64,000 nucleotides of DNA from Oscillospiraceae bacterium (GTDB lineage: Bacteria; Bacillota; Clostridia; Oscillospirales; Oscillospiraceae): assembly GCA_902795195.1 (NCBI GenBank), contig CADBKF010000001.1:62001-126000 (forward strand), read 5' to 3'. Shown here one piece after another: positions 2,407 to 53,625 of this stretch. Within the stretch, counting starts at the first letter, position 1, and each line of letters starts with the position of its first letter. A model generated the notes under the pieces. It had not been told where the DNA came from. It ran no database searches and saw nothing but the letters and a program-made list of their open reading frames with translations. Both the position numbers and the translations under genes were made by a program.

Positions 2407-4830
2407 ATGGAAGAACTCATTGAATATGAACAGCTGCCGGTGATCCCGCTGCGCGGCATGGTGGCCTTTCCGGAGGCGACCATGCACTTTGACGTGGGGC
2501 GGGAGAAATCCGTGCGCGCGCTCGACCGGGCGGTCAGCACGAATCAGCGGCTGTTTCTGGCCCCGCAGAAGAGCCTGATGACCGACGATCCGGGCTTTGA
2601 CGAGCTCTACAGCGTGGGCACCATCGCCAAGGTCAAGCAGGTCCTGCGCCTGCCGGGCGAGACGGTCCGCGTGCTGGTTGAGTGCCAGACCCGGGCCAGA
2701 ATCGTCACGGCGCTCAAGACCGCGCCCTATCTCAGCGCCCGGGTGGAGCACCAGACCGAGATTTCGGTGCAGGCGCCCTCTGCCCGCGCCGAGGCGGCGG
2801 CGCGCATCGCCTACCAGCAGTTTGAGGAGTATATGGACCTCAGCGGCCGGCAGCTGAGCGAAGAGATGCTGCGCCTGCTTGCCACGCGCGACCCCGGCAA
2901 GATCGCCGATATCACCGCGCAGGCCTCCTCCATCCGCTTTGAGGACAAAGCGGCCCTGCTGCTCGAGCGCAACGGGCTCAAGCGCCTGCTGCTGTGCAAC
3001 AAGCTGATGCAGCACGAGCTGGAGATCCTTCGCATCGAGGATGAGATGCAGGACAAGACGCAGGAGAGCATGAACCGCAACCAGCGGGACTACTATCTGC
3101 GCGAGCAGCTCAAGGTGATCCAGACCGAGCTCGGCGAGGACGACGAAGAGGAGTTCGACGAATACGAGCGCAAGGTCCTCGACCTGCACCTGCCGGAGGA
3201 ATCCGAGCAGAAGGTGCTCAAGGAGGTCCAGCGCCTGCGCAAGCAGCCCTTCGGCTCGTCCGAGGCTTCGGTCATCCGCAATTACCTCGACCTGGTGCTG
3301 GAGCTGCCCTGGAACACCGCGACCAAGGAGCGGCTGAACCTCGAGCAGGCCAGACGCATGCTCGACCAGGACCACTACGGCCTGGAAAAGGTCAAGACCC
3401 GCGTGCTGGAATTTCTTGCCGTGCGCAAGCTCGCGCCCGACATGCACGGGCAGATCCTCTGCCTCGTGGGGCCTCCCGGTGTGGGCAAGACCTCGGTCGC
3501 CATGAGCATCGCCCGCTGCCTCAACCGGAAGCTGGCCCGCATCTCGCTCGGCGGCGTCCATGACGAGGCCGAGATCCGCGGCCACCGCAAGACCTATGTC
3601 GGCGCCATGCCCGGCCGGATCCTGTCCGGCCTGCTGCAGGCCAAGACCAACAACCCCCTGATGCTGCTCGACGAGATCGACAAGCTGGGCAGCGACTACC
3701 GGGGCGACCCGTCGGCGGCCCTGCTGGAGGTGCTCGACAGCGAGCAGAACAGCAGCTTCCGCGACAACTATCTGGAGCTGCCGTTTGACCTCAGCCGCTG
3801 CATGTTCATCACCACGGCCAACACCACCGACACCATCCCCAGACCGCTGCTCGACCGCATGGAGGTCATTGAGCTCGGCTCCTACACGGACGAAGAGAAG
3901 CTCATGATCGCCAAGCGGCACCTGCTGCCGAAGCAGCTGAAAAAGCACGGCATCCAGAAGACGCAGCTGCGCCTGCCCGATAGCGCCCTGCGCGAGATCA
4001 TCGCCTGCTACACCCGCGAATCCGGCGTGCGGCAGCTCGAGCGGGAGCTCGGCGCGGTCTGCCGCAAGGCGGCCATGCAGCTTGCAACCGACGAGAGCAT
4101 CCAGAAAATCAGCGTCAGCGCCGATCAGCTCGAGCACTATCTCGGCGTGCGCCGCTTCCTGCCCGACCGCATGGCGGCAGAGGACCCCGTGGGCCTGGTC
4201 AACGGCCTGGCCTGGACCTCGGTCGGCGGCGAGGTGCTGCAGGTGGAGTGCAACGTCGTCGAGGGCAGCGGCAAGCTGGAGCTCACCGGCAACCTGGGCG
4301 AGGTGATGAAGGAATCCGTCCACGCTGCGCTGAGCTACATCCGCTCCCGGGCCAAGACCTTCGGCATCGCCGAGGATTTCTACAAGACCAAGGACATCCA
4401 CGTGCATTTCCCCGAGGGCGCGGTCCCGAAGGACGGCCCGTCGGCCGGCATCACAGTCTGCACGGCCATCGTCTCGGCGCTCACCGGCGCCACGGTGCGC
4501 AGAGACCTCGCCATGACCGGCGAGATCTCGATCCGCGGCCGGGTGCTGCCGATCGGCGGCCTCAAGGAAAAGACCATGGCGGCCTACCGCATGAACCTCA
4601 AGACGGTCATTCTGCCGGAGGACAACGTCAAGGACCTCGAGGAGATCGACCCCGTCGTGCGCAAGGCCCTGAACTTCATCTCCGTCTCCACCGCTGACAG
4701 CGTCATCGAGCACGCGCTGCACTTCCCACAGCCGGAGGCCAGAGACGCGGTGCTCGAGGAGCCCTCCCAGCTCCCCCTGGGCGCCAAGCCGGTGAAGCAG
4801 AGAAAGCGGAAGCCGGATCTGCGGCAGTAG
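2407..4830 (+). CDS. lon: ATP-dependent protease Lon
   Basis: An 807-residue Lon protease with an N-terminal LON substrate-binding domain (about 8-205), a helical linker, an AAA+ domain with Walker A GPPGVGKT near 355 and Walker [11 protein letters not shown], and a proteolytic domain. The catalytic dyad is Ser679 in PKDGPSAG and Lys722 in GGLKEK, the same numbering as E. coli Lon. The frame is open further upstream inside clpX, but the ATG at 2407 gives the expected [17 protein letters not shown] start. No strong Shine-Dalgarno precedes it; translation may be coupled to clpX, whose stop is 5 bp away. The C-terminal tail is basic. Confidence 0.97.
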
Positions 4831-4833
4831 GGG

Positions 4834-4875
4834 ATAGGCAATCGGGAAGAGGCAAAAGGCAATAGGCAACAGGAG
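4834..4875. repeat. Heptamer tandem array, six units
   Basis: Six consecutive 7-bp units lie in perfect phase, with consensus A-N-R-G-G-C-A (for example ATAGGCA, AGAGGCA, AAAGGCA). The array begins three bases after the lon stop codon. A related array with the same kind of unit occurs upstream of priA at 16764-16791, and arrays with other units lie elsewhere in the window. No coding function is visible. Confidence 0.8.
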
Positions 4876-4900
4876 ACGCGGTCTCATCCATGCTGCGCTC

Positions 4901-4926
4901 CGTAGGGGACGGGTTCCCCGTCCCGC
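4901..4926. repeat. GTAGGGG-type palindromic repeat
   Basis: A short GC-rich palindrome starts with GTAGGGGACGGG and closes with CCCGTCCC over a three-base TTC loop. It shares the GTAGGGG edge with the larger inverted-repeat element at 5994-6083. It lies between lon and engB, about 20 bp upstream of the engB start. This looks like a REP-class intergenic repeat. Confidence 0.55.
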
Positions 4927-4945
4927 CCGAAACAGATTGAAACCA

Positions 4946-5536
4946 ATGCTGAATTTACAAAAAGCTGAATTTTTAACGTCGATCGCGGATCTGAACAAGG
5001 TCCCGGGCGACGGGCTGCCGCAGATCGTGTTCTCGGGCAAGTCCAACGTGGGCAAATCCTCAGTCATCAACCGGGTGCTGCAGCGCAAAAACTTCGCCCG
5101 GGTGGGCGAGAGCCCCGGCAAAACCACGCACATCAACTTTTTCCGCATCGACGGCAAGGCGTATTTTGTCGATCTGCCGGGCTACGGCTACGCCAAGGTG
5201 CCCAAGTCCGAGAAGGAGCGCTGGGGCAAGCTCATGGAGGCCTATTTTGCCCGGCCGGAGTGGATCAGCCTCGGCATCCTGATCGTGGACGCCCGGCACA
5301 AGCCGACGGAAAACGACGTGACGATGGCAAAATACTTTCAGGCCTCCGAACGGCCCTTCCTCGTGGTGGCAAACAAGCTCGACAAGCTCAAAAAGAGCGA
5401 GCTTGCGCCCAACATGGCCCTGATCCGCCAGACCCTCGCCCTGGACGAGGCCACGAAGCTCATCCCCTTCTCCGCCGAAAAAGGCACCGGCCGCGACGAG
5501 CTCGTCAGAGAAATCTTCGCCGCCGCAGGGGAATAA
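4946..5536 (+). CDS. engB: Ribosome biogenesis GTP-binding protein EngB (YsxC/YihA)
   Basis: A 196-residue TrmE-Era-like GTPase needed for 50S assembly. The G1 loop GKSNVGKS is at residues 31-38, the GKTTHINFF stretch carries G2, DLPGYGYA is G3 and NKLDK is G4, with a SAEKGTG G5-like end. A TTG three codons upstream (4937) is in frame; the ATG at 4946 is preferred because it gives a typical short N-terminus. Neither has a clear Shine-Dalgarno, and a heptamer array and a palindrome fill the upstream gap. The lon-engB order is common in bacteria. Confidence 0.95.
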   Translation: MLNLQKAEFLTSIADLNKVPGDGLPQIVFSGKSNVGKSSVINRVLQRKNFARVGESPGKTTHINFFRIDGKAYFVDLPGYGYAKVPKSEKERWGKLMEAYFARPEWISLGILIVDARHKPTENDVTMAKYFQASERPFLVVANKLDKLKKSELAPNMALIRQTLALDEATKLIPFSAEKGTGRDELVREIFAAAGE

Positions 5537-5540
5537 AAAA

Positions 5541-5587
5541 GAGAAAAAACGATCTGATTTCCGACGAAATCAGATCGTTTTTTCTCT
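5541..5587. terminator. Long perfect-stem terminator after engB
   Basis: A 20-bp perfect inverted repeat (5541-5560 against 5568-5587) with a seven-base loop. It ends in TTTTTTCTC on the plus strand and in the equivalent on the minus strand, so it can work in both directions. It separates engB from the minus-strand tRNA region. Confidence 0.85.
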
Positions 5588-5594
5588 GAAATGC

Positions 5595-5648
5595 TCCACC
5601 AACAACAAAAAGAGATCGCTTTTGCGATCTCTTTTTGTTGTTGGTGGA
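5595..5648 (-). terminator. 25-bp perfect hairpin next to a tRNA 3'-end copy
   Basis: The arms 5595-5619 and 5624-5648 are exact reverse complements around a TTTT loop. Read on the minus strand, the hairpin directly follows a copy of the tRNA-Val 3' end (5641-5662), just as the real tRNA terminator follows the tRNA. It looks like the terminator of a lost or rearranged tRNA gene. Confidence 0.6.
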
Positions 5649-5741
5649 GACGAATGGACTCGCGAGCCGCGGGCTAAAAACATGCCACCGGCATGTTTTT
5701 GCGGTCTTCGACCGCCGCCCTGTTCGAGTCCATTATTCTGA
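5641..5741 (-). other. tRNA-derived structured remnant
   Basis: Bases 5641-5662 repeat, with one mismatch, the 3' terminal 22 bases of the tRNA-Val at 5785-5806 (T-arm, acceptor, CCA). The rest of a tRNA is absent. Instead the T-arm half AATGGACTCG (5653-5662) pairs with an inverted copy CGAGTCCATT (5725-5734), enclosing two more hairpins: one at 5676-5700 flanked by A5 and T5, and a GCGGTC/GACCGC one. This may be an integration scar, a decayed tRNA or a tRNA-end-derived repeat. The open frame across it encodes a VETNG-type peptide and is spurious. Confidence 0.5.
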
Positions 5742-5749
5742 ATACCATA

Positions 5750-5788
5750 CCAAAGAAAAAGCTGCCCAATTGGGCAGCTTTTCTTTGG
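5750..5788 (-). terminator. Terminator of tRNA-Val
   Basis: The hairpin is centred on GCTGCCCAATTGGGCAGC (5761-5778), with A-rich and T-rich flanks that extend the stem. Read on the minus strand it begins at the CCA end of the tRNA and ends in a T-run, as expected for intrinsic termination. Confidence 0.85.
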
Positions 5789-5862
5789 TGGAGACTAATG
5801 GACTCGAACCATCGACCTCCTGCGTGTGAAGCAGGCGCTCTAACCAGCTGAGCTAAGCCTCC
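5786..5862 (-). tRNA. tRNA-Val (anticodon CAC)
   Basis: Read on the minus strand, a 77-nt cloverleaf starts GGAGGCTTAGCTCAG and ends CTCCACCA, with CCA encoded. The acceptor stem GGAGGCT pairs with AGTCTCC. The anticodon stem CCTGC/GCAGG closes the loop TTCACAC, placing CAC at positions 34-36, which reads GUG (Val). The T-arm has the TTCGAGT loop. It stands alone, with its own promoter and terminator. Confidence 0.93.
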
Positions 5863-5873
5863 GTGCGAAGGGT

Positions 5874-5901
5874 ATTATATCATATTTTTCCGAAAAATCA
5901 A
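5874..5901 (-). promoter_or_regulatory. Promoter of tRNA-Val
   Basis: On the minus strand TTGATT (5896-5901) is followed after 16 bp by a perfect TATAAT (5874-5879), ending 11 bp before the tRNA 5' end. It fits sigma-A. Confidence 0.75.
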
Positions 5902-5993
5902 GTATTTTTTTTGAAATGCGTGAAAGACATTTTTCGAGATATGTGAAAGACTATTGAAACCGGTTTTCGACGAACCGGTATCTGCTCGGACAC

Positions 5994-6083
5994 ATTGTAG
6001 GGGCGGCGTCCTCTACACCCCGCAGCAGCCGCTCAGGACCAGGAAACGGGCTGTCGAGGACGTCGCCCCTACCGATATACAAT
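5994..6083. mobile_element. MITE-like GTAGGGG inverted-repeat element
   Basis: Near-perfect 17-bp inverted repeats (5997-6013 and 6056-6072, one mismatch) start with GTAGGGGCG and end with CGCCCCTAC. They are flanked by ATTGTA and TACAAT, which extend the symmetry. The core of about 42 bp has no ORF. A smaller relative lies at 4901-4926. A separate hairpin (ACCGGTT/AACCGGT) sits just upstream. A non-autonomous element mobilised in trans is likely, but no transposase is present in the window. Confidence 0.6.
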
Positions 6084-6166
6084 GGTAAAGACTCTCATTT
6101 TGAAGAGCTTGCGATTAAATATTTGTGTAGCACTGGTTTATGTGTGGTATTGAAAGAATTAAAACG

Positions 6167-6214
6167 CGATTTATTTGGATAATTAGGAAACGATTTATTT
6201 GGATAATTAGGAAA
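6167..6214. repeat. 24-bp tandem duplication
   Basis: Two exact, adjacent copies of a 24-bp AT-rich unit (CGATTTATTTGGATAATTAG followed by GAAA) lie immediately upstream of the promoter of the AT-rich gene at 6298. The position suits a duplicated operator, though a simple replication slip is equally possible. Confidence 0.8.
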
Positions 6215-6219
6215 AACGA

Positions 6220-6248
6220 TTGAAAACATTTCCGCGGTATGTTATGAT
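6220..6248 (+). promoter_or_regulatory. Sigma-A-type promoter of the orphan gene
   Basis: TTGAAA (6220-6225), a 17-bp spacer and TATGAT (6243-6248) lie about 50 bp upstream of the ATG at 6298, just after the 24-bp tandem repeat. Confidence 0.75.
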
Positions 6249-6297
6249 ACTATTTGTCTACTATAGAAATACTATATGCGGAAAAAGGAGATAAAAA

Positions 6298-7128
6298 ATG
6301 TTTGAGAAATCGCCGTATGAATATGAAAAAGAGCTTCGCCAGGAAGCAGATAAAAAGAGTGAAAAAAAGAAAAAAATGAAGAGAAAAGAAGATGGGGATG
6401 TATTACTTTGGTCACTAAGCATAACGGTAGGCGTTTTTGCTGGGTTTGTTGGATGCACTGTGAAGCTAATCAACCATCAAGGGAGCCCTAGCAAAGCAGT
6501 ATTATCTTGGTTTACAACAATGCTAGTTGTGAGTCTAGTGACATTCTCTATTCAATTGATTATTCATTGGATTGTTTCAGTGCAGAATAAAAATGTGGAT
6601 ATGAAGAAGGAGGCTAACAACAGAGGTGCAGAACAGGAAGCAAGAATATACCAGCACGATTTTGAAAGAGCGGCAAAAATAGAAAGTATTAAATACGAGA
6701 AAAGCATATTCACACAAGAAATCGTTGATACTATCGCTCCGGCGATATTTTCATCGATAAAGATGGCGGATCGCAACAAGCATATCCAAACAGTCACAGA
6801 TAAAACATGCATTTCCGTACTGAAAACCGAAGTGCGTTGGGGGACATGGATTAATAGTTTTTATAATTTTAACGAGCATCGAGTCGACTGCTTACCAAAT
6901 ATTTTATCACAAGCTGCCCTTGCTATGGCAGTAGCTACCTTACTTCAACAGAAAACTGAGCTAGAGTTTCTACATGATAGCAGTGGAACTACCCCGACTA
7001 TTTCGTATTGTTTAAGATATGATACAGCAGTAAAGGACAGTAAAGGTGTTTATTCATTCCCTGTTTATATAGACTATTTATATTCCGCGCCAAACGGAGA
7101 CTATGTTGAATCTCATACATGGGTATAA
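6298..7128 (+). CDS. AT-rich orphan two-TM protein, unknown function
   Basis: A 276-residue protein I do not recognise. It begins with a highly charged cytoplasmic segment (Lys/Glu-rich, 1-36), then has two hydrophobic helices at about 37-59 and 68-95, then a soluble C-terminal region of about 180 residues, helical at first and ending in a Tyr/aromatic-rich stretch. It has a good ribosome site (AAAGGAG) and a strong promoter. Base composition is far more AT-rich than the neighbours and A-ending codons are frequent, pointing to recent acquisition. It stands alone between a tRNA/MITE zone and a terminator. A membrane-anchored sensor or a defence/immunity function is possible but unsupported. 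Confidence 0.8.
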   Translation: MFEKSPYEYEKELRQEADKKSEKKKKMKRKEDGDVLLWSLSITVGVFAGFVGCTVKLINHQGSPSKAVLSWFTTMLVVSLVTFSIQLIIHWIVSVQNKNVDMKKEANNRGAEQEARIYQHDFERAAKIESIKYEKSIFTQEIVDTIAPAIFSSIKMADRNKHIQTVTDKTCISVLKTEVRWGTWINSFYNFNEHRVDCLPNILSQAALAMAVATLLQQKTELEFLHDSSGTTPTISYCLRYDTAVKDSKGVYSFPVYIDYLYSAPNGDYVESHTWV

Positions 7129-7255
7129 TAGGAAAGATAAGTTTTACGAATATCGAATTCATGAAAGTTGAGATTACTAAATCTGTCCCTTTGACAATAT
7201 GGTTTAGAGTGCACTTTAATATGATATTGTTGAATAATGGTCTATAAACTATACG

Positions 7256-7291
7256 AATCCCTTGAAATCCCTGAGATTTCAAGGGATTTTT
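7256..7291. terminator. Intrinsic terminator
   Basis: The stem AATCCCTTGAAATC / GATTTCAAGGGATT (7256-7269 and 7275-7288), with a five-base loop, ends in TTTTT. It lies about 130 bp after the stop of the orphan gene. The DNA between (7129-7255) is AT-rich and shows no ORF. Confidence 0.85.
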
Positions 7292-7455
7292 CATTTATCA
7301 CGAGTATTATTCCTCTGAGCCCTTTCGATAGATTTGAGGATGCAGGCTGGGCTGACCTATCGCTCAACCAGCAGTATAAATTGGTGTTGAACTAAATTGA
7401 TGGAAAGGATTGTAGTTCGGGATGTGGTTTGGAACATAGTTTACAACATCTGTTA
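7292..7455. other. Intergenic segment with a possible gene remnant
   Basis: No complete gene is visible. One forward frame stays open to TAA 7393-7395 and encodes about 35 residues ending DLSLNQQYKLVLN, protein-like in composition but with no start codon; it could be the tail of a lost gene. The rest, up to the end of the minus-strand gene at 7456, shows no clear terminator. Confidence 0.25.
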
Positions 7456-8529
7456 TCAAACCATGCTGGTAATGCTGGCATACTGTCTAAACAGGGCGGT
7501 CCAGGTGGCGGGGTTGACGGCGCCGGTGCGGGGCAGGCCTGCATAGGCCTGGAAGGCAAAGACCGCGTCCCGGGTGTTGGGGCCGTAGACTGCATCCACC
7601 GTGAGCACCGGGATGCTCGGGATATACTCGCCCAGCACCGCCAGCATATACTGCAGCTGCGCCACGCGCTCGCCGGTGTCGCCGGGCTGCAGGCCGTCAA
7701 AGGGCCCGAGCAGGATGTCCTCAAAGCGCAGGCCTTCGGATTCCAGCTCCGCCAGCTGCAGCACCCCCACGTAGACCCGCTCGATGGCATACCAGGTGTT
7801 TCGGCCCACGACGCCGTCGGGCTCCAGGCCGAAGACCTGCTGGAATGCGCGCACAGAGGCCTCGGTCTGCGGCCCGAACACGCCGTCCGGCTGCGGCCGC
7901 GGGATCGCCGGAAAGCTCCGGCCGATCCGGTTGAGGTCCCGCTGCACGGCGTACACATCCCTGCCGCGGCTGCCGCGGCGCAGCGCCGCGCCGGGATAGG
8001 ACTCCCGCAGGCTCTGCTGCGGCGCGTTGCGCACAAGCTCGATGTTCTCGCCGTAATAGTAGCGCAGGATGCGCATGGCGTCGTAGCCCTGCTGCGCCAG
8101 ATACTGCGAGCCCCACTGACTGAGCCCGGCGCAGGTGACCGTGGTGCCGTTGCAGAACTTGGCCGCCAGCGGCTCGATGCGGCCCGGGCGGCGGATATAA
8201 TCATCGTAGAGCTCGTCGACGAGCACCGAGATCGTGTCAAAGAAGTTGCGTCCCTGGACAAACTGCTGGTCGTAGGCGGTGCTCGAGGTGATGTCGAAGG
8301 GATAGCCCCGGCTGCGGTAGAACTCGGTGTAGACCCGGTTGAGCGCAAACGAGGTGATGGCCAGAATGTTGGCCCGCAGCGCAGACGGGTCCCAGGTGGG
8401 ATAGACCTCGCTCGAGGCGACGTTTTTCACATAATCCTTGTAGGGCACCGTGACGTTTTCCGCCGGCCGGTCCGGCGGACCGAGGTGCACCGTGATGTAG
8501 GATGGCACAAAGGGGATCGTGGTTGGCAT
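7456..8529 (-). CDS. SpoIID/LytB-like domain protein with two peptidoglycan-binding repeats
   Basis: 357 residues. Residues about 25-165 match the SpoIID pattern: a YKDYVKNVASSEVYP..W opening, an ALRAN..A..SFALNR helix and the GLSQWG motif. Two PG_binding_1-type helical repeats follow, about 185-255 (RGSRGRDVYAVQRDLNRIG ... DGVFGPQTE) and 280-350. SpoIID of sporulating bacteria cleaves denuded glycan strands. This version has no signal peptide or TM helix, so it probably acts in the mother cell or spore compartment. The start follows GGAGGAGG. It is the second gene of a pair with 8560-8937. Confidence 0.85.
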   Translation of the reverse strand: MPTTIPFVPSYITVHLGPPDRPAENVTVPYKDYVKNVASSEVYPTWDPSALRANILAITSFALNRVYTEFYRSRGYPFDITSSTAYDQQFVQGRNFFDTISVLVDELYDDYIRRPGRIEPLAAKFCNGTTVTCAGLSQWGSQYLAQQGYDAMRILRYYYGENIELVRNAPQQSLRESYPGAALRRGSRGRDVYAVQRDLNRIGRSFPAIPRPQPDGVFGPQTEASVRAFQQVFGLEPDGVVGRNTWYAIERVYVGVLQLAELESEGLRFEDILLGPFDGLQPGDTGERVAQLQYMLAVLGEYIPSIPVLTVDAVYGPNTRDAVFAFQAYAGLPRTGAVNPATWTALFRQYASITSMV

Positions 8530-8559
8530 GATTTCCTCCTCCGGGTCAGATCGCTGCGC

Positions 8560-8937
8560 TCATAGCCCCTGCGGGGGAACATCAAAGCGCTCGGTTTCGT
8601 CAAATGCCCCGGGCGTTTCGCTGAGTGGGATCAGCCGCATTTTCTGAATTGTCGTGACGCCAGGGAAGATCTGCACGCCGCTGACGATGATGCCCTCGAA
8701 GCCCGGGTGCGTGACGCTCACCGTGACCTCGGTCCAGCCCTGCAGCTGGTCCGGCGAGAGGCTGTTCTGCAGCGCGGGCGTCGGAACGGAAACCGTTCGG
8801 GTAAAGCCGCTCTGATCGGTGCGCTGCGCGCTGAGCAGCACCCGGTCCGGGCCGGTGATCGTCACCTGAGCCCCGCGGATCGGGATCTCGACCCGGGACG
8901 TGACCGCCTGCACGCGGATATAGCCGGTTGATGGCAT
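8560..8937 (-). CDS. Carboxypeptidase-regulatory-like (Ig-fold) domain protein
   Basis: 125 residues forming a single beta-sandwich of the carboxypeptidase regulatory-like type: GYIRVQAVTSRVEIPIRGAQVTI, then GFTRTVSVPTP and a GFEGIIVSGVQIFPG strand. No signal peptide is visible. An in-frame ATG two codons earlier (8943) is only one base from GGAGG; the ATG at 8937 has proper spacing and was preferred. It lies 30 bp before the SpoIID-like gene in the same direction, so the pair is probably one transcript. I infer a joint role at the spore cortex or envelope. Confidence 0.75.
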   Translation of the reverse strand: MPSTGYIRVQAVTSRVEIPIRGAQVTITGPDRVLLSAQRTDQSGFTRTVSVPTPALQNSLSPDQLQGWTEVTVSVTHPGFEGIIVSGVQIFPGVTTIQKMRLIPLSETPGAFDETERFDVPPQGL

Positions 8938-9042
8938 AAGCATTCCTCCATTTCCTCACCAGACTATGCAAAGACGGGCGCGACGGTGCGCGCCGGCGCA
9001 GTTCGACGCCTTCCGGCATAGACTGATGCGGGAGGGATGAAT

Positions 9043-9279
9043 ATGCGGGAATACTTTGTCAATTACCGCTCGATCACCAAGGCCCAGCGGGCCCTGCGCG
9101 CGCTGGAGCGCCAGGGCATTGCGGCGAGCCTGCAGCGCACGCCGCAGGCGGCCCGCCAGAATGGCTGCGGCTACTCGATCCGGCTTTCTGAGCGTGAGTT
9201 TTTGCGCGCCCGGCCGCTTCCGCCGGGCTATGACAGCGTGTTGGTCAAAACCGGCCAGCTCTGGGAGGCGGTACCGTGA
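9043..9279 (+). CDS. DUF3343 family protein (putative Se/S carrier-like)
   Basis: A small protein (78 residues from ATG 9043; an in-frame ATG at 9037 abuts GGAGGG and has no spacing). It shows the DUF3343 pattern: an initial beta strand FVNYRS, a helix with ALRALERQGI, then QNGCGYSIRL with one Cys in a Gly-Cys-Gly context. The family is described as carrier-like and often sits beside selenium or sulfur genes. Its TGA overlaps the GTG start of a cysteine desulfurase by 4 bp, so the two are translationally coupled and probably work together. Confidence 0.8.
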   Translation: MREYFVNYRSITKAQRALRALERQGIAASLQRTPQAARQNGCGYSIRLSEREFLRARPLPPGYDSVLVKTGQLWEAVP

Positions 9280-10439
9280 TCTATCTCGACAACGCCGCCA
9301 CCACGCTGCAAAAGCCGGCGTCCGTGCCGCGGGCGATGGCGCAGGCCGTGCAGCGCTGCGCCAATCCCGGCCGCGGCGGCTATGCGGCCTCCATGCAGGC
9401 GGCCGACACGCTGCTGGAACTTAGGCAGGCTGCGGCGGACTGCTTTGACGCTGATCCGGAGCAGGTGGTTCTGACCATGAATGCCACCCACGGACTGAAC
9501 CTGGCGATTCGGACCCTGGTCTCGCCCGGGGACCGGGTGGTGATCTCAGGCTATGAGCACAACGCGGTCGTGCGCCCGCTGCACGCGCTGGGCGCGGAGC
9601 TTTCGGTCGCGTCCCGGGCGCTGTTTGACCCGGCGCGGACGGCTGCGGACTTTGAAGCGGCCATTTCCCGGGACACGAAGGCGGTCATTGTGAACCACGC
9701 TTCCAATGTGTTCGGGTATGTGCAGCCGGTGGAGGAGATCGCAGCCCTGTGCCGGCAGCGCGGCGTGCCGCTGATCGTCGATGCGTCCCAGTCGGCTGGG
9801 ATCCTGCCGATCTCGCTCCGGCATCTGGGCGCTGCGTTCATTGCCATGCCGGGCCACAAGGCGCTCTACGGGCCGCAGGGCACGGGCTTGCTGCTGTGCG
9901 GCAGGCTGCCCGACCCGCTGCTCTTCGGCGGCACCGGGAGCCAGTCGCGGCTGCCTGAAATGCCGGATTTCTTGCCGGACCGCGCCGAGGCGGGCACCCA
10001 GAACGTGCCCGGTGCGGCGGGGCTGCTGGCCGGGCTGGGATTCGTGCGCGGGCAGGGGAGCGCCCTTCGGGTGCGGGAGCGGCAGTGCAGGGCGCAGCTG
10101 TGCCGCGGCCTTGCGGCGATTTCCGGCGTGCAGGTTTTCTCCGGCGGGGCGGATCAGCTCGGGGTGGTCTCGTTCCGGGCGGCCGGCATGGACTGCGAGG
10201 ACCTGGCCGCGCAGCTGGCAGAGCGCGGCATCGCCGTGCGGGCAGGGCTTCACTGCGCGCCCCTGGCGCACGAGAGCGCCGGCACACTGGGCAGCGGCAC
10301 TGTCCGCGCCAGCCTCGGCGCGTTCAATCGCAGTGAGGAGATTGCCGCATTTCTGGACGCAGTTGAAGAAATTTTGAAAAAACAAGAAGGAACCCAGGAA
10401 AAGCCCTTGCCTTTTCACGGCTTTTCCTGTATAATTTAA
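9276..10439 (+). CDS. Cysteine desulfurase / selenocysteine lyase family protein
   Basis: A 387-residue class V aminotransferase fold PLP enzyme. MIYLDNAATT is the typical start, the PLP lysine is Lys195 in MPGHKALYGPQGTG and the catalytic Cys327 lies in RAGLHCAPLAH. HASNVFG and DASQSAG are further family motifs. It starts at GTG 9276, overlapping the DUF3343 stop. It mobilises sulfur (or selenium) from cysteine (or selenocysteine). No IscU/NifU or tRNA thiolation gene is adjacent, so Fe-S supply is less likely than a dedicated Se/S relay with DUF3343. The C-terminal 12 residues overlap the promoter-hairpin zone of cdaA. Confidence 0.88.
   Translation: MIYLDNAATTLQKPASVPRAMAQAVQRCANPGRGGYAASMQAADTLLELRQAAADCFDADPEQVVLTMNATHGLNLAIRTLVSPGDRVVISGYEHNAVVRPLHALGAELSVASRALFDPARTAADFEAAISRDTKAVIVNHASNVFGYVQPVEEIAALCRQRGVPLIVDASQSAGILPISLRHLGAAFIAMPGHKALYGPQGTGLLLCGRLPDPLLFGGTGSQSRLPEMPDFLPDRAEAGTQNVPGAAGLLAGLGFVRGQGSALRVRERQCRAQLCRGLAAISGVQVFSGGADQLGVVSFRAAGMDCEDLAAQLAERGIAVRAGLHCAPLAHESAGTLGSGTVRASLGAFNRSEEIAAFLDAVEEILKKQEGTQEKPLPFHGFSCII
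10407..10435 (+). promoter_or_regulatory. Promoter of cdaA operon
   Basis: TTGCCT (10407-10412), a 17-bp spacer and a perfect TATAAT (10430-10435) lie about 70 bp before the cdaA ATG. A GGAAAAGCC...GGCTTTTCC hairpin overlaps the spacer and could terminate upstream transcripts. Confidence 0.75.
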
Positions 10440-10503
10440 TAGATTAAGTGTAAATAGGTGAAATGGCGCTCATCGCGCCTCGCACACCCGGGAGTTTTGT
10501 TCC

Positions 10504-11373
10504 ATGAAAGAAATTGAAAGCATGATCAACAGCATCGGCAACGCGCTGCCGACGATCTCGGTGACTGACATCATCGACATCGCGCTGGTGACGATCCTCG
10601 TGTACTACGTCATCATGAAGATCCGCAACACCAGCGCCAACCGCATCGTCAAGGCCATCATCCTTTTGCTGGCCGTGACCCTATTGACAGACATCTTCAA
10701 GCTGCACACGATGCACTTCTTGCTCAATCGCGTGCTGGAATTGGGCGTTGTGGCCCTGGTCATCGTGTTCCAGCCGGAGCTTAGAAAGCTGCTCGAGCGC
10801 GTCGGCGGGCAGAGCCTGCGGGATCTTGTCACCAAGCCGGTCACCTCCGACGAGTCGATGGTCACGATCCGCGAGACGGTGGAGGCCTGCGACAACATGT
10901 CCAAGGAGCGGGTCGGCGCCCTGATCGTGTTTGAGCGCATCAACTCCCTCGAGCAGATCGCGCATACCGGCACCAAGGTCAACGCCGAGGTCTCGCAGGA
11001 GCTGATCCGGAACATTTTCTTCCCCAAGGCGGCCCTGCATGACGGCGCTATGATCATTTCCAATAACCGCATCACCGCAGCCGGCTGCGTGCTGCCCCTG
11101 ACGGAAAACCGGAATCTCAGCTCCGACCTGGGCACCCGGCACCGCGCCGGCATCGGCATGAGCGAGAATTCCGATGCACTGGTCATCATCGTCTCTGAGG
11201 AGACCGGCGCCATCTCGGTCGCCACCGAGGGCATGCTCAAGCGCGGCCTCACGGTGGAGACCCTGCGCAAGATGCTCGAGCAGGAGTTTACGAACAGCGA
11301 ACAGAAGGAGTCGGTGTTCGACCGCATCAAAAAGATCGGCAGAAAGGAGAACGACAGCGATGCAGAAGCATAG
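10504..11373 (+). CDS. cdaA: Diadenylate cyclase CdaA (DacA/YbbP)
   Basis: 289 residues, with about three N-terminal TM helices (roughly 22-100) and a cytoplasmic DisA_N domain. The catalytic DGA motif is Asp180-Gly-Ala in ALHDGAMI and the RHR motif is Arg212-His213-Arg214 in GTRHRAG. It makes c-di-AMP from two ATP to control potassium and turgor. The next gene, cdaR, overlaps its end by 14 bp, the standard pairing. In many Firmicutes glmM follows; here it does not. Confidence 0.97.
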   Translation: MKEIESMINSIGNALPTISVTDIIDIALVTILVYYVIMKIRNTSANRIVKAIILLLAVTLLTDIFKLHTMHFLLNRVLELGVVALVIVFQPELRKLLERVGGQSLRDLVTKPVTSDESMVTIRETVEACDNMSKERVGALIVFERINSLEQIAHTGTKVNAEVSQELIRNIFFPKAALHDGAMIISNNRITAAGCVLPLTENRNLSSDLGTRHRAGIGMSENSDALVIIVSEETGAISVATEGMLKRGLTVETLRKMLEQEFTNSEQKESVFDRIKKIGRKENDSDAEA

Positions 11374-52836: not shown

Positions 52837-53625
52837 TTATCGACCTGTGGTCATTAAATCGTATGTTTTAAGGAAGTTGTTCCAACGCTGTTCCTCGAGA
52901 CTGCACTGAGAATTATATGCAGTAATCGCATTGCTTGTCGCAGAAAAAGATTGTAATTGAGTTTGACGAACAGATTCATTCAATAAGTTTCTAGTCAAAC
53001 TGTTTCCATCATTTATGGCATCATAAAGTGTGTGCTGATTTGTTTTGATCTGCTCAAGGTTTTTGATGACTTGGTCCATTTTATCGAGCAATTTACCCCA
53101 ACGTACGTCTTCCCGATATGTATTGTAGGCACCACTTGAGCCTCCAAGTTCAGTGCAGATTCCAGAAGCAAAATATTCATAGAACGAGCAAACAGCATTC
53201 AAATTCTGGTAAGATGGGTAAATGTTGCCGGCTTCATAATAGCGTTTTAGGAAAGAAAGCGTTTGGTTATGCTGTGCTACTAATTCATTCTTCATAGTTT
53301 CCAACTTCTTTGCCTGCTGAAGCTCGTTTTCAACTCTTTTTTTGTCATTATCCAGATTCTTATAGTATTTGTTTCTCAACTCATCATCAGCGCTGTTTTC
53401 TCTTGAACGTTCAACAAGCCAAACAATGATACTGACAAAGAAACTGCCAGCAAGTGCGATCGCACCAAACTTAATAGCACCACCGATTAAACCGCCGATT
53501 TTTCCCAATAGCCCTTTTTCGGTAACGAGGCCAACAATACCGCCTATAATTGCACCGGCAAGCACACCAATCATTGCAACTGCAGCTAAAGTATCCGTGA
53601 ATTTTGATTTTTCAACAACTTCCAT
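52837..53625 (-). CDS. AT-rich two-TM coiled-coil protein, unknown function (3' frame of a frameshifted gene)
   Basis: 262 residues as read. Two Gly/Ala/Ile-rich TM helices (about 10-35 and 40-70) are followed by a long charged coiled coil (75-115) and a helical C-terminal region with a YPSYQNLNAVCSFYEYFASG motif. No proper ribosome site precedes ATG 53625. An open frame with a perfect Shine-Dalgarno starts at 53753 in the next frame, and one extra A in the A6 run (53636-53641) would join them. The gene is thus frameshifted or recoded. AT-rich composition indicates acquisition. A divergent XRE regulator lies upstream. Confidence 0.75.
   Translation of the reverse strand: MEVVEKSKFTDTLAAVAMIGVLAGAIIGGIVGLVTEKGLLGKIGGLIGGAIKFGAIALAGSFFVSIIVWLVERSRENSADDELRNKYYKNLDNDKKRVENELQQAKKLETMKNELVAQHNQTLSFLKRYYEAGNIYPSYQNLNAVCSFYEYFASGICTELGGSSGAYNTYREDVRWGKLLDKMDQVIKNLEQIKTNQHTLYDAINDGNSLTRNLLNESVRQTQLQSFSATSNAITAYNSQCSLEEQRWNNFLKTYDLMTTGR

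Follow-up and report, generated by a model that had tools for sequence, protein, structure and literature searches.

What protein does the most AT-rich patch of this DNA encode, to which family does it belong, and how did its gene come to lie beside a tRNA and a MITE-like element? We addressed these questions for P0001, the product of a gene in a 64-kb stretch of an Oscillospiraceae genome (the whole stretch, 64,000 nucleotides, is called the window here). An earlier, sequence-only reading had taken P0001 for an orphan two-TM protein of no recognised family, an acquired cargo gene with a strong promoter and a terminator of its own.

Results

The open reading frame (ORF) of P0001 is preceded by AAGGAGATAAAAA, as seen on inspection of the sequence. 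With the AAGGAG, the ATG, 276 codons and a downstream hairpin, it is a convincing gene (Table 1). The protein is made of a basic N-terminal segment, which includes the stretch KKKKMKRK, a first transmembrane (TM) segment at residues ~33-58, a short loop, a second TM segment at ~67-96, a helical stretch that runs to ~150, and a C-terminal domain (~135-276). The hydropathy profile has two hydrophobic segments at these same N-terminal positions, in keeping with the two-TM description, plus a borderline third at residues 198-216, inside the C-terminal domain. AlphaFold2, run on the single sequence, placed helices at residues 6-60 and 66-151 with an overall pLDDT of 52; values by block were 63-85 up to residue ~120 and mostly below 50 from residue 126. 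The C-terminal domain modeled alone reached a pLDDT of 40. These models are too poor to be suited to a fold search.

Table 1. Features of the P0001 locus and positions of the two relatives of P0001 (positions are those of the window unless a locus is named)
Feature	Position	Strand	Basis or remark
tRNA-Val (cac)	5786-5862	-	tRNA search
MITE-like inverted-repeat element	about 5997-6072		left border of the AT-rich patch; 134 bases past tRNA-Val
Tandem direct repeat, exact, 24 bp, 2.0 copies, 100%	6167-6214		possible regulator-binding site
Extended -10 promoter-like site, TTGAAA-17-TATGAT with TG	6220-6248	+	string match
Ribosome-binding site AAGGAG and spacer	6285-6297	+	sequence
P0001 gene, 276 aa, ATG start	6298-7128	+	ORF call and translation
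Conserved C-terminal domain, residues 130-276, common to P0002 and P0003	6685-7125	+	pairwise shuffles, BLASTP, alignment A4
Terminator-like perfect hairpin, 14 bp	7255-7289		separates P0001 (+) from the convergent SpoIID-like gene (-)
P0002 (genome G108), 300 aa	L086:814-1713	+	profile A1
P0003 (genome G1360), 186 aa	L107:1414-1971	-	profile A3

The composition of the gene is indeed foreign to its surroundings: its GC is 0.380 in a window of 0.61, and its GC3 is 0.343 compared with 0.82-0.87 in five neighboring genes. Among all 831-bp stretches of the window, the one of lowest GC starts at 6075-6077 and overlaps P0001, and the AT-rich patch starts directly after the MITE-like inverted repeat. 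Among the ORFs of 6085-7450, no other convincing one adjoins P0001.

The exact direct repeat upstream of the gene is far beyond chance. The longest lagged exact match in 6085-6300 (lags 10-60) is 24 bases, against a maximum of 14 in first-order simulations (n=2000). It is the sole lagged exact match of at least 18 bp within the 64 kb, and its 21-base core occurs in its own genome only at these two places (up to 3 mismatches). Neither the region upstream of P0002 nor that around P0003, the two relatives described below, showed a comparable tandem repeat; the 24-bp repeat is therefore not a family feature. The strong promoter that had been claimed is a string match no commoner than in shuffles: 3 sites of the TTGAAA-17-TATGAT kind were observed and 3.4 expected, so that the match alone is not significant. 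The site is plausible because of its position, 5 bases downstream of the 24-bp repeat and 49 before the start codon. At the other end of the gene, the perfect hairpin agrees with the terminator that had been claimed.

The placement of P0001 beside a tRNA and a MITE was confirmed. The MITE-like element has imperfect inverted repeats and occurs at 6 places in its own genome, this one included (window 5985-6085; others L078-L082). The consensus, made from five aligned copies with L082 left out, has the ends GTAGGGGGCGGCGTCCTCGACGCCCCG and CGGGGCGTCGAGGACGCCGCCCCCTAC and a variable middle. A 22-bp copy (95%) of the 3' end of the tRNA-Val (5785-5806) lies at 5641-5662, 144 bp away on the side opposite P0001, and may be the mark of an old integration.

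An engB-like DNA match was present in 21 of the 23 genomes of the genus, its own included; in G014 it was merely a 39-base stretch. Surroundings of engB were taken from the other 19 genomes. We counted as informative the 14 in which 2.7 kb or more follow engB; the remaining five contigs end inside engB or within about 1.2 kb of it and are uninformative. P0001 was missing after engB in all 14 informative species (tblastn, 1e-5), and tRNA-Val and the SpoIID-like gene were likewise missing from the fetched stretches of all 14 (ARAGORN; tblastn, 1e-5). Presence at this locus throughout the genus, one of the two outcomes named as refuting the earlier reading, was thus not observed. The first 1.8 kb after engB have a GC of 0.50-0.71 per 300 bases in 13 of these species. 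In the fourteenth (G006), a tRNA-Met follows engB, together with an AT-rich gene that has hydrophobic segments and an end that we take to be GGDEF-type (L115:239-1792). The site therefore looks variable, and insertions may recur in the engB flank. By eye, no mobility gene was recognized among the ORFs of 3000-11000, so that the description of P0001 as acquired cargo stands on composition and patchiness.

Single-query searches with P0001 gave nothing convincing in Pfam, NCBIfam, PHROGs, PADLOC, the PDB, phages, plasmids and viral contigs. Such searches miss P0002, and profiles were used in three genome searches only. A weak match to the NCBIfam MAG1210 family (NF046000; residues 9-156, E 3e-4) scored 19.6 bits against a curated cutoff of 275 bits; it is confined to the TM and helical part, and we therefore take it to be driven by composition. 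The TM region also resembles four Pfam TM families of unknown function (DUF3169, DUF6773, DUF1218 and DUF4064; E 0.013-0.14), all below the gathering score. As P0001 falls below every Pfam and NCBIfam cutoff, it was assigned to no household family. Matches to PHROG 33436 (E 0.068, residues 46-144) and PHROG 1193 (named hemolysin; E 8.2, residues 68-92) lie in the TM/linker region and were not significant, and the C-terminal part alone had no PHROG match. The 5027 models of PADLOC-DB gave no match to P0001 at E up to 10 and none to P0003; for P0002 there was just TIR-TM at E 0.63. The best PDB sequence match of P0001 had E 1.3, and nothing across all PDB searches was better than E 0.31. P0001 had no match in 50,697 phage records, and P0002 and P0003 had none among phages either; the phage and viral-contig searches with P0001 reach fairly close homologs. 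Plasmids gave no match for P0001 and P0003 and one for P0002 at E 2. Pattern scans of viral contigs and genome contigs confirmed no relative.

Genome searches with P0001 itself used overlapping samples of 148, 400, 391 and 398 whole genomes. With an E limit of 1, whole P0001 matched 27 of the 148 related genomes, the best match other than itself having E 5.7e-4; six matches were inspected, and five lie within what we take to be FtsX/MacB-like permeases, while the frame retrieved for the sixth was an overlapping one in antisense. Residues 101-276 found only themselves among 400 genomes of the family at E 0.01, the other 399 being without a match. Among 391 genomes of the class they found themselves and two places, both rejected as they contain stops and overlap other ORFs. 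Residues 130-276 matched themselves and 12 places among 398 genomes of the phylum at E up to 0.1. Half of the twelve are interrupted by stops, and the other six fall within open frames of 137-831 codons. Realignment succeeded except at L066, and by eye no alignment showed the family features. Four (L062, L065, L067 and L069) were examined as plus-strand frames, but the matches of L062 and L065 lie on the opposite strand.

The relatives of P0001 came from profiles. Profile A1, made of the last residues of P0001 and two hand-typed probe rows, was searched against 246 genomes and found a 301-codon frame in G108 (E 5.8e-5 per genome), the gene of P0002. Because the probe rows are not data, the P0001-P0002 pair was tested on the actual sequences alone. 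Their C-terminal regions gave a local z of 10.2 (0/2000 shuffles), and outside the probe region, at residues 130-200, the global z is 6.1 (0/2000) and the local z 4.3 (5/2000). There is no such alignment between the N-terminal halves (global z 0.1; local z 2.7, 30/2000). Profile A3, built from the two real sequences only, was searched against 108 genomes and pointed to G1360 (E 0.0025 per genome), a value insufficient by itself. The 187-codon frame found there, that of P0003, ends in the shared closing motif N..Y.E...W. P0003 aligns with P0001 at a local z of 8.8 (0/3000) and with P0002 at 7.8 (1/3000). Block-preserving shuffles of the three pairs gave local z of 9.5, 8.2 and 7.3 and global z of 6.7, 4.9 and 4.8 (0/2000 each), and two-sequence BLASTP gave E 6e-6, 1e-4 and 1e-5 as single comparisons, the first two involving P0001. 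P0001 thus aligns significantly with both other members and carries the closing motif, the two marks by which membership of the family, defined here, was judged.

P0002 and P0003 come from two genera of one family, other than that of P0001, within the same order. The three proteins share a C-terminal part of ~130-150 aa, and their N-terminal anchors differ. In alignment A4, P0002 and P0003 are 22 and 25% identical to P0001, and like it they have [YV][ND]F[ND]xxRxxxL, DxxG and the closing segment Y-x-[AC]-x-N-x-x-Y-x-E-x-x-x-W; P0001 has the closing motif with one extra residue after the W. Among the positions conserved throughout are F, R and L of the first motif, D and G of the second, and five residues of the closing segment (Y, N, Y, E and W). 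The invariant set, with R, D, D, N, E, two Y and W among its residues, forms no catalytic pattern known to us, and for this reason we favor a binding domain; with three sequences in hand, an enzyme is still conceivable. Each relative also has a hydrophobic N-terminal anchor and an AT-rich gene. Unlike P0001, with its two hydrophobic stretches, they have one each; P0002 has a long linker and P0003 a short one, and their neighbors differ from those of P0001. Judged by these alignments, the C-terminal domain of P0001 belongs to a small, fast-diverging family, undescribed in the libraries searched. The remote homology check of the C-terminal region that had been suggested thus yielded two real relatives through profile searches, and the label of an orphan has to be narrowed: no named family was found, but with two relatives of its C-terminal domain P0001 is not a strict orphan.

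No further candidate inspected from these searches held up. The hand-typed probe alone matched 6 of 117 genomes, including its own and G108 (E 0.02). Apart from itself, profile A1 hit 20 places in 18 genomes; of the six inspected (L086, L105, L103, L097, L087 and L088), L086, the locus in G108, was alone real. Profile A3 matched 3 of 108 genomes, and G1319 (L108) was dropped for its internal stops. Profile A4, searched against 166 genomes from a different family of the class, had two matches, both to unrelated ORFs, and found no member there. A motif scan of the fetched loci returned the three members only, the motif being derived from those same three. Sub-threshold matches in the N-terminal half of P0002, to Pfam Ly49 (E 3.6e-5, 24.7 bits; cutoff 31.5) and phrog_21600 (E 2e-4), were set aside.

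The genes of P0002 and P0003 have a GC of 0.33 each, against 0.45 and 0.46 in the surrounding 19.5 kb, and their neighbor genes have 0.32-0.37. P0002 is followed by a DUF5685 gene (PF18937, E 7.8e-62) and then by an ORF of 171 aa whose tail is Cys-rich, these two ORFs sharing about 40 bases (L111:9777-11172). P0003 is preceded by two genes, one for a protein of 117 aa that is apparently TM and a divergent one for an XRE-type HTH regulator; a kinship of the 117-aa protein with the N-terminus of P0001 failed (local z 0.8). By eye, no defense gene, integrase or transposase was recognized near any of the three members. All three being AT-rich agrees with lateral acquisition.

Discussion

Our best explanation is that P0001 is an acquired, membrane-anchored protein that carries the domain of this family and acts in conflict with mobile elements. 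Taken whole, it seems to us evenly poised between right and wrong. Its statement of identity is likely, and the single gene was probably acquired horizontally. The role, that of a membrane-localized sensor or effector in phage defense or exclusion, is tentative and, on its own, rather unlikely. It is the leading guess because the gene sits in a patchy AT-rich island, and the commonest known biology of membrane-anchored genes in such islands is conflict with phages and plasmids; the small, apparently TM protein and the XRE-type HTH gene next to P0003 speak for the explanation, and the DUF5685 neighborhood of P0002, which is unlike a defense cassette, leans against it.

In such a protein, the two N-terminal TM helices would anchor P0001 in the membrane, the helical linker may oligomerize, and the C-terminal domain would face the cytosol, where it probably binds a partner or ligand. 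The basic N-terminus points to an inside location of this end and, across two TM helices, of the C-terminal domain too. This orientation, read from charge alone, is probable, and the borderline stretch at 198-216 could upset it. The gene would have its own promoter, perhaps controlled by a regulator at the 24-bp repeat, a candidate operator. A bolder version, in which the C-terminal domain belongs to a modular membrane system against phages and mobile elements, with one partner-sensing cytosolic domain, swapped anchors, AT-rich islands and a switch at the 24-bp tandem site, strikes us as improbable.

P0001 could also be an accessory envelope or stress protein of the host, fast-evolving, membrane-anchored and partner-binding, its AT-richness due to transfer from low-GC relatives. 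We consider this a real possibility that falls short of an even balance. It is favored by the low GC of P0002 and P0003, by the position of P0002 next to DUF5685 with no recognized mobile or defense genes, and by the phage and plasmid searches, which gave nothing in phages and at best E 2 in plasmids. Patchiness speaks against it, as members were recognized in 3 genomes of all searched, most searches being single-sequence. A gene for superinfection exclusion or lysogenic conversion, left by a prophage lost from the tRNA-Val site, would account for the neighboring tRNA with its 3'-end copy and for a membrane protein with its own promoter-like and terminator-like sites. However, that copy lies on the side of the tRNA away from P0001, no phage gene was recognized by eye in 3000-11000, and neither the phage records nor the viral contigs held a confirmed match, which makes this origin improbable.

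A membrane-active toxin of a toxin-antitoxin type pair, its partner lost or elsewhere, seems less probable still. A membrane protein in an AT-rich single-gene patch fits it, as do the small, apparently TM protein and the HTH gene beside P0003, but P0001 has no adjoining candidate partner ORF and its conserved C-terminal domain is large. That the frame is no gene at all and arose by chance in an AT-rich spacer is scarcely credible: no close homolog was found, yet the ribosome-binding site is good, and the two independent C-terminal homologs refute it. Returning to the acquired membrane-anchored protein that we prefer, the domain family is new and small, and the gene is of a familiar kind. Unnamed singletons that are AT-rich and membrane-anchored are numerous in bacterial genomes. 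By defining a C-terminal domain whose anchors can be exchanged, the analysis makes one such orphan open to family searches. Should the domain turn out to function in phage conflict, it would offer a handle on defense genes that present models miss.

A second AT-rich single-gene island in the window encodes a 262-aa protein (52837-53625, minus strand; 831-bp stretches of GC 0.37-0.39). By eye it resembles P0001 in its hydrophobic N-terminal segments, helical stretch and C-terminal part, and in its AT-rich island; the C-terminal parts are unrelated (z 0.2). The likeness of the N-termini is marginal, being reached by 15/2000 local and 4/2000 global block shuffles, BLASTP of the pair gave no significant alignment, and we dropped the idea of a shared 2TM anchor. 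The 262-aa protein had no phage or plasmid match at E 0.1, and none was confirmed in viral contigs.

At the P0001 locus itself, engB is followed by two long perfect inverted repeats at 5594-5649 and 5540-5587 (26- and 22-bp arms, 4-nt loops), which are likely terminators.
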